From Odontesthes bonariensis (taxonomy: Eukaryota > Chordata > Actinopteri > Atheriniformes > Atherinopsidae), in contig NC_134517.1 of NCBI RefSeq assembly GCF_027942865.1, positions 13,680,275 through 13,744,274 on the forward strand: 64,000 bases of DNA, given 5' to 3'. Under the pieces are notes generated by a model, which saw only the letters and a list, made by a program, of their open reading frames with translations, was not told where the DNA came from and searched no databases. Position numbers and translations under genes: made by a program. This document shows, piece after piece, positions 46,001 through 47,674 of this stretch; within the stretch, counting starts at the first letter, position 1, and each line of letters starts with the position of its first letter.

Positions 46001-46811
46001 TAATAAGCAGCTCCTCCAGATCACTGACAGATACATGTGATTTTTGATGAATCTCTGTTGTATTCAATGACTTTGGAATGGACATATTTAGAGGGCACAC
46101 AGGTGAGGTGAGAACAAGACCCGATTGGTTCATCACACCACTGCAGCCACGAGGGGTAGACTCAGCAATCGTTTCACAGCAAGGTGGAATGACATCCTTT
46201 CCTCCATGAGCCCAGGGAAAAATCTCAAATGACACAGAGCCAGCTTCTGCAACTGCTTTCAGATCAACCCTGTACACACCAACTGCTGGGATTTCTTTCC
46301 AATTGGAGGTGTCAGTTGTAGATATCTGTGTCGCCACAGAAGTCAGGGTCAAGGCACTGATCGCTGCATCAAATTTCCACAGCAAGCTGCGCCTGCCAAA
46401 GAAGTCTCTGCCAAACCAAAGATAGTCACCAGCCTTCTGGTAGTAAACAAACCCCCATGGTCCCCTTACAGCAGACAGGACAGTAAGAATCTCTGAAGGC
46501 TTGTTGCAGGTCGACAACCTCTGAGACATAACAGCGGTGTCATTCTCCCCTGGCATCACTGGCAGCCCTCCAAAAATCTCTCCATTCCACAGCAGGATGT
46601 TTCCAGTGTCGTCTTGAACCGGCTGAGGGGTGAGGAGACCCTTCATGTGAAGAACATGGGCGGAGAACAAACACTGAAAGTTGGAGTCTGTGCCTATAAC
46701 TGTAAGATCCTGGCTCGAGTTTGGCCCTCTTCTTCTCAAATGCTCATAAACCATTTTGTCCCACTCAAAGTCAGCAGACGAGAGACTCAACAGACAAAAG
46801 ATGCCACACAT
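43002..46811 (-). CDS. asnsd1: asparagine synthetase domain-containing protein 1 (3 coding exons)
   Basis: Asparagine-synthetase-like protein with an N-terminal class-II glutamine amidotransferase domain and a C-terminal ATP-pyrophosphatase (synthetase) domain; its physiological reaction is not settled. Coding exons on the minus strand: 46811-45399, 45120-44939, 43248-43002, 1842 nt, 613 aa plus stop (human 643). The protein starts MCGIF, keeping Cys2, the amidotransferase nucleophile, and has the PPi-loop SGGIDS at residues 317-322. [13 protein letters not shown] in exon 2 is also typical of the family. The residues between the domains (about 205-280) and the Lys-rich stretch near 350-365 are poorly conserved. 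It is the second cistron: its ATG lies 10 nt after the stop of asnsdurf in the same exon. Reaching it requires reinitiation or leaky scanning. Confidence 0.96.
43925..44050 (+). repeat. dispersed repeat in asnsd1 intron
   Basis: AAATTTATTTATATAGCACC followed by AATTCACACCAGAAGTCATC is a repeat start that resembles 32360-32460 (TTTATTTATGTAGCGCCAGT, then a TCATCTGAAGG segment). The family was not identified. Confidence 0.5.
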
Positions 46812-46821
46812 TGTTGCGATC

Positions 46822-47674
46822 TTACAAGTCCTGGAGTTCTTTTTTCATGTAATCCAGATCCTCTGCAAACAGAAAATTCTGATATGTTCATCTGCCACAT
46901 GATTTGATATGAGCACATTTTTATTCATTTTAGACATGCTAAAATTAACAATAAATTTCACAATTCAGCTTACTTTTGCATGTACCCAGTGTCTGACTTC
47001 TATCTGCTAGGAAGAATATGTTACTATTTCGCTGCTGGATGTAGACTTTCTGCAAAAGAAGAAAACAAACAAAGAAATATATAAAATGTGCACCAACACC
47101 GACAAAAGTACATAGTCATGTAACAATAATTACATTGAAAAAAATTACTTTGTTGCCAAACTTATTGGATGCACAAGACATTAGTATCGATTGCGTTGTT
47201 ACTAATCATAATTAATATGGTATAACCAACTTAAATAAATCCACAAATGACTATTCAGTTGAGTTCTTTCCTCATTTCATCACCACTCACCCTGTTTTTC
47301 CTGAGATTAGAGAGCTCGTCCACAATAACCTTCTGCTCCTTAATCTGTAAAGTAACACACATCATCTCAAACCTCAGTCAACTACTTCACTACATATCAC
47401 CATTTTTATCTGCTGTCAGCAAATAAAGTCTAAACATTTTCCCAAAACATACATTCGTGAGCAGCGTAACAGGATTATTCAAGTGTGTTAAACTACCATG
47501 CTTACATTAATGTCTTTTCAGCTACATTTGTCTGTTAGCTAGTTTTAACCGCATTAGCTCACATTAGCCACCTGGAGCATGATTAGAAATAACAGCTACC
47601 TTTTTGTTCAGTTCCTCCTTTAGTGTAGAGTGTTCGTCAGAAAAAATATTACTTTCGTGGCTTTTCGAAGACAT
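46822..47674 (-). CDS. asnsdurf: ASNSD1 upstream ORF protein (prefoldin-like), 4 exons
   Basis: Small coiled-coil protein encoded by the 5' part of the asnsd1 mRNA; in mammals ASNSDURF is a prefoldin-like subunit of the PAQosome (R2TP/prefoldin-like) chaperone complex. Coding segments on the minus strand: 47674-47600, 47344-47291, 47049-46974, 46862-46822; 246 nt, 81 aa plus stop (human 96). The middle is strikingly conserved: [18 protein letters not shown] and [15 protein letters not shown]. The N terminus ([19 protein letters not shown]) and the shortened C terminus ([13 protein letters not shown]) differ from mammals. The last segment shares its exon with the asnsd1 start. Splice phases close without a shift. 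Confidence 0.92.

Follow-up and report, generated by a model that had tools for sequence, protein, structure and literature searches.

The minus strand of the window (the entire 64,000-nucleotide stretch of Odontesthes bonariensis DNA analysed here, C17:13680275-13744274) carries two consecutive protein-coding frames, of which the upstream one encodes a small protein of the ASNSD1-SEP family and the downstream one a protein with the features of ASNSD1. This gene is very probably the ortholog of the vertebrate ASNSDURF (ASDURF)-ASNSD1 bicistronic gene, with a functional upstream protein. The two frames lie on the same strand, the stop codon of asnsdurf and the start codon of asnsd1 can be read in the DNA within one exon, and a single mRNA would carry both. 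The arrangement has already been described in human, and the present analysis adds that it is conserved and that an exon-by-exon search of the genome brought up no second copy.

The upstream frame and its product

The asnsdurf frame comprises 81 codons and a TAA (246 nt), distributed over exons of 75, 54, 76 and 41 nt that join at 47600/47344, 47291/47049 and 46974/46862 with intron phases 0, 0 and 1 (Table 1). A preliminary description of this DNA had placed an 81-codon frame on four exons, with its TAA 10 nt before the asnsd1 ATG (46811-46809) in one exon, and both placements proved right to the nucleotide. All three introns are of the GT-AG type; scored with a simple textbook matrix, their donors fall at the 95.7th, 99.8th and 98.3rd percentiles of the GTs on the minus strand of the window. 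The 3' end of intron 2 is clearly pyrimidine-rich, those of introns 1 and 3 being less so. From the splice signals together with the frame, we infer that the four exons are joined in the RNA.

Table 1. Positions, within the window, of the features of the asnsdurf-asnsd1 locus, in the order of transcription
Feature	Position	Strand	Remarks
Possible 4-codon uORF (MCLR, stop)	47738..47752	-	Begins 78 nt before the asnsdurf ATG; relevant if transcription starts upstream
asnsdurf start AUG	47674	-	A at -3, no G at +4; context not weak
asnsdurf coding exon 1	47600..47674	-	ATG at 47674, context UACAAA-AUG-U
asnsdurf intron 1	47345..47599	-	255 nt, GTAGCT...TTACAG
asnsdurf exon 2	47291..47344	-	18 residues
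asnsdurf intron 2	47050..47290	-	241 nt, GTGAGT...TTGCAG
asnsdurf exon 3	46974..47049	-	25 residues and the first base of the following codon
Out-of-frame AUG	46981	-	U at -3; 27-codon frame, the stop of which ends 24 nt past the A of the asnsd1 ATG
asnsdurf intron 3	46863..46973	-	111 nt, GTAAGC...TTGCAG
asnsdurf exon 4, coding part	46822..46862	-	TAA ending at 46822
In-frame AUG	46848	-	U at -3
Intercistronic gap	46812..46821	-	10 nt, between the asnsdurf TAA and the asnsd1 ATG
asnsd1 coding part of the shared exon	45399..46811	-	Starts MCGIF
asnsd1 coding exon 2	44939..45120	-	
asnsd1 coding exon 3	43002..43248	-	Stop ending at 43002

Exon 3 of asnsdurf has two in-frame donors, 12 nt apart, at its end (46974-46986, minus strand), and the upstream one, if used, would also take out the out-of-frame AUG at 46981. 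This donor, at 46986, which would leave an in-frame product of 77 codons, was considered as the main form and set aside; it ranks at the 79.6th percentile and its product scores 77.5 bits with the family profile PF21975, against 87 bits for the 81-codon form. A run of about 14 TAGA copies (in the minus-strand reading) was seen by eye at about 48083-48139, approximately 400 nt ahead of the asnsdurf start codon.

With Pfam PF21975 (ASNSD1-SEP, 'ASNSD1 upstream open reading frame protein'), a family made for the human product, the 81-residue protein scores 87 bits against a curated cut-off of 27 (E 9.1e-25), and the alignment places residues 10-80, i.e. 71 of the 81, on profile positions 15-85 of 96. 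Chance is therefore excluded as the source of the upstream frame. The match leaves residues 1-9 and 81 of the protein uncovered, along with positions 1-14 and 86-96 of the profile. Its end at position 85 coincides with that of the frame, which is consistent with the earlier suggestion that the C terminus is shorter than in mammals. Human ASNSDURF has a length of 96 residues, as compared with the 81 codons found here. A length of 40 aa is tabulated for human ASDURF in one review (PMC9776223).

A likeness to the beta-type prefoldin subunits is seen in the form of a weak match to Prefoldin_2 (PF01920) over residues 19-81, the score of which (16.8 bits, E 0.0068) lies below the family cut-off of 27.6 bits. 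The fold of these subunits consists of two helices linked by one beta hairpin. Among solved structures, 9 distinct sequences were matched by the 81-residue protein at E <=10, the best being mS41 (0.089), judged to be due to chance, and prefoldin beta subunit 2 (3aei; E 2.7) was counted as no evidence. NCBIfam gave only matches far under the cut-off, both for the small protein and for the asnsd1 stretch (which, as searched, ran 21 codons into the intron). Relatives of the small protein were also sought in viral and prokaryote genome contigs, where pattern matches in 24 and 232 stretches, respectively, yielded none that could be confirmed, and PF21975 was found in 0 of 14 non-vertebrate control genomes.

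The preliminary description had regarded the frame as coding for a real protein and not as a regulatory uORF. The analysis supports a conserved, spliced, coding frame that belongs to the ASNSDURF family and has an exon in common with asnsd1; the choice between the two does not hold, as the human uORF does both. In human reporters, ablation of the uORF start (uAUG.3) is reported to raise the downstream luciferase 2.27-fold, and a tagged peptide is produced from the uORF and abolished by mutation of its start (PMC8894207); uAUG.3 is the ASDURF start (PMC9776223). Since ablation of the start lifts the output and a tagged peptide is made, the human frame is both coding and repressive. The reported reduction of downstream translation to about half by the human uORF (PMC8894207) would also suit a uORF that acts in cis only and encodes a peptide without function. 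Such an element is nevertheless very improbable here, given the extent and score of the PF21975 match, the description of the human product as a subunit of a complex (PMC11009110) and the listing of Arabidopsis AT1G49245 as an ortholog of ASDURF, found as an interactor of UXT, in a plant review (PMC10893143).

The shared exon and the initiation of asnsd1

The reading frame of asnsd1 is open across 613 codons and its ATG lies 51 nt inside the exon that starts at 46862. The product contains an Asn_synthase domain (PF00733, E 8.2e-17), the 62.3 bits of which pass the cut-off of 21, and begins with MCGIF, so that both an MCGI-type amidotransferase start and an asparagine synthase domain, as expected of ASNSD1, are present. 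The cysteine next to the Met is presumably the nucleophile of a class II amidotransferase; the score with GATase_7 (17.8 bits) is under the cut-off of 25. The asparagine synthase B profile is matched weakly (26.1 bits, with a cut-off of 499), and the alignment starts at residue 1 of the product and position 1 of the profile, in agreement with a translation start at MCGIF. The first coding part of asnsd1 gave no match among solved structures at E 0.01. The exon common to both frames might also be expected if the upstream exons coded for the start of ASNSD1 itself and no separate protein existed. This can be given next to no credence, as a TAA stands in between, the two frames differ (the ATG-to-ATG distance being 256 nt) and ASNSD1 starts with MCGIF, from the first residue of which the weak asparagine synthase B match also runs.

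The manner of asnsd1 initiation had been called a real question in the preliminary description; the question is a fair one, and the anatomy of the leader leans towards leaky scanning. From 47674 onwards, a ribosome that scans the leader would encounter three AUGs ahead of the asnsd1 ATG at 46811; the two inner ones are weak, though the first is not, and the AUG of asnsd1 has an A at -3. Most scanning ribosomes would start at 47674 and produce the 81-residue protein, and a minority would pass this AUG and the two with U at -3 and then start at asnsd1. The upstream cistron would also damp the output of asnsd1, because only a minority of the ribosomes pass on to it. Leaky scanning is probably how most asnsd1 is initiated. 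In the human leader, ASDURF begins at the third AUG (PMC8894207, PMC9776223), and here a unit of an AUG and a stop is found at -78, if transcribed.

Within asnsdurf, out-of-frame AUGs show no significant depletion, with 1 observed against 1.74-2.12 expected under three schemes (P 0.21-0.41). In asnsd1, taken as a control, such AUGs are in excess (25 against 17.7-19.5 expected), the share of 5000 shuffles with 25 or fewer being 0.98-0.996. The contrast between the two frames has the direction that leaky scanning predicts, which is no proof of it.

Reinitiation, in which ribosomes that have finished asnsdurf stay bound to the mRNA and begin again 10 nt further on, is suggested by the very small spacing between stop and start, and the AUG at 46981, the frame of which runs past the asnsd1 start, would present no trouble to reinitiating ribosomes. 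It is nonetheless an unlikely main route, as the upstream frame is 81 codons long and 10 nt is a short distance in which to reacquire initiator tRNA; according to a review, reinitiation is favoured when uORFs are shorter and gaps longer (PMC11900008). Ablation of the human uORF start raised the output (PMC8894207), a result that is still compatible with some reinitiation. It is likewise improbable that most asnsd1 is made from separate, shorter transcripts that omit the asnsdurf ATG through their start or splicing, with the bicistronic form serving mainly for ASNSDURF, as the human pair was recovered among transcripts reported to be predominantly polycistronic (PMC13303939). As two introns of asnsd1 lie downstream of the asnsdurf stop, termination at this stop could also make the mRNA a target of nonsense-mediated decay if no ribosomes continued to asnsd1.

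Copy number, chaperone role and relation to known systems

Searches of the 945-Mb assembly (187 contigs) were performed exon by exon, and only the best candidates were scored. PF21975 was matched at three places at E <=10, two of which are exons 3 and 2 of the asnsdurf locus and the third a place on another contig (C3; 16.2 bits, E 7.3), and the three places matched by the 81-residue protein are exons 3, 1 and 2 of the same locus. Thus, neither the family nor the protein revealed a second asnsdurf copy elsewhere below E 1 in the genome, by a search that a diverged copy with small exons could escape and an intronless copy should not. PF01920 was matched at four places, and matches in PDB name two of the four as Prefoldin subunit 2 (3.8e-20) and Prefoldin subunit 6 (1.1e-12).

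Human ASDURF is described as a beta-type component of both the prefoldin-like complex and the PAQosome on the basis of co-elution, reciprocal AP-MS and alignment of its predicted structure to the beta-prefoldins, with an average TM score of 0.563 (PMC11009110), and it is listed together with URI1, UXT, PDRG1, PFDN2 and PFDN6 (PMC9406135). The corresponding role is assigned here through orthology with human ASDURF; the 81-residue protein would, as a beta-type prefoldin-like subunit, join these same partners in the prefoldin-like module of the PAQosome. The two-protein layout shared with human, for which no second copy was found, supports the view of ASNSDURF as a genuine chaperone subunit.

The listing of AT1G49245, which we read in the table of the plant review as a stand-alone locus, suggests that the subunit predates its tie to ASNSD1 (PMC10893143). 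A tentative reading is that ASNSDURF was an older, independent gene, the transcript of which was joined later by asnsd1. As no second copy turned up in this genome, the PAQosome subunit could then be made here from the shared mRNA only, and chaperone assembly and ASNSD1 output may be coupled by the choice of start codon. The occurrence of the two-protein layout as in human, with an exon shared, supports the coupling being old in vertebrates.

The proteins of the MIURF-MIEF1, PYURF-PIGY and STREMI-SLC35A4 transcripts are unrelated to ASNSDURF and ASNSD1. These human transcripts likewise encode an upstream microprotein and a main protein each, and a screen on the aligned genomes of 100 vertebrates recovered human ASDURF-ASNSD1 among the bicistronic transcripts that had been characterised before (PMC13303939). 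The gene described here shares with the human transcript a frame of the PF21975 family that is followed by ASNSD1. No title or abstract opening on the asnsdurf-asnsd1 gene of fish was found in the literature searched, and the gene name occurs 0 times in the main texts of PMC7530721 and PMC4568590. The finding leaves the existing picture unchanged, and the locus provides a clean natural case for the translation of a main frame located 10 nt behind an 81-codon cistron.

Genomic neighbourhood

Pfam searches with 10 frames of the window (E 0.01) identified FPN1 in three and symplekin in two, with no match in the remaining five. The FPN1 frames belong to exons of slc40a1 (ferroportin; 58732-60592, plus strand), a gene divergent from asnsdurf-asnsd1 and about 11 kb away, and one ferroportin frame matched chains of solute carrier family 40 in PDB (best 2.4e-48). 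It is the nearest other gene identified on that side; genes with smaller exons may have been missed in between, since the frames considered had at least 90 codons. ASNSD1 and SLC40A1 are neighbours in human too. Symplekin N-terminal exons are located at 19566-20720 on the plus strand, with SYMPK_PTA1_N in two frames. Long open frames also occur on the plus strand at 34029-34688 and 38053-39405, those at 34029-34688 and 38196-38873 having no Pfam match at E 0.01; the letters of the frames at 34029-34688 and 38053-39405 resemble pieces of non-LTR retrotransposon proteins.
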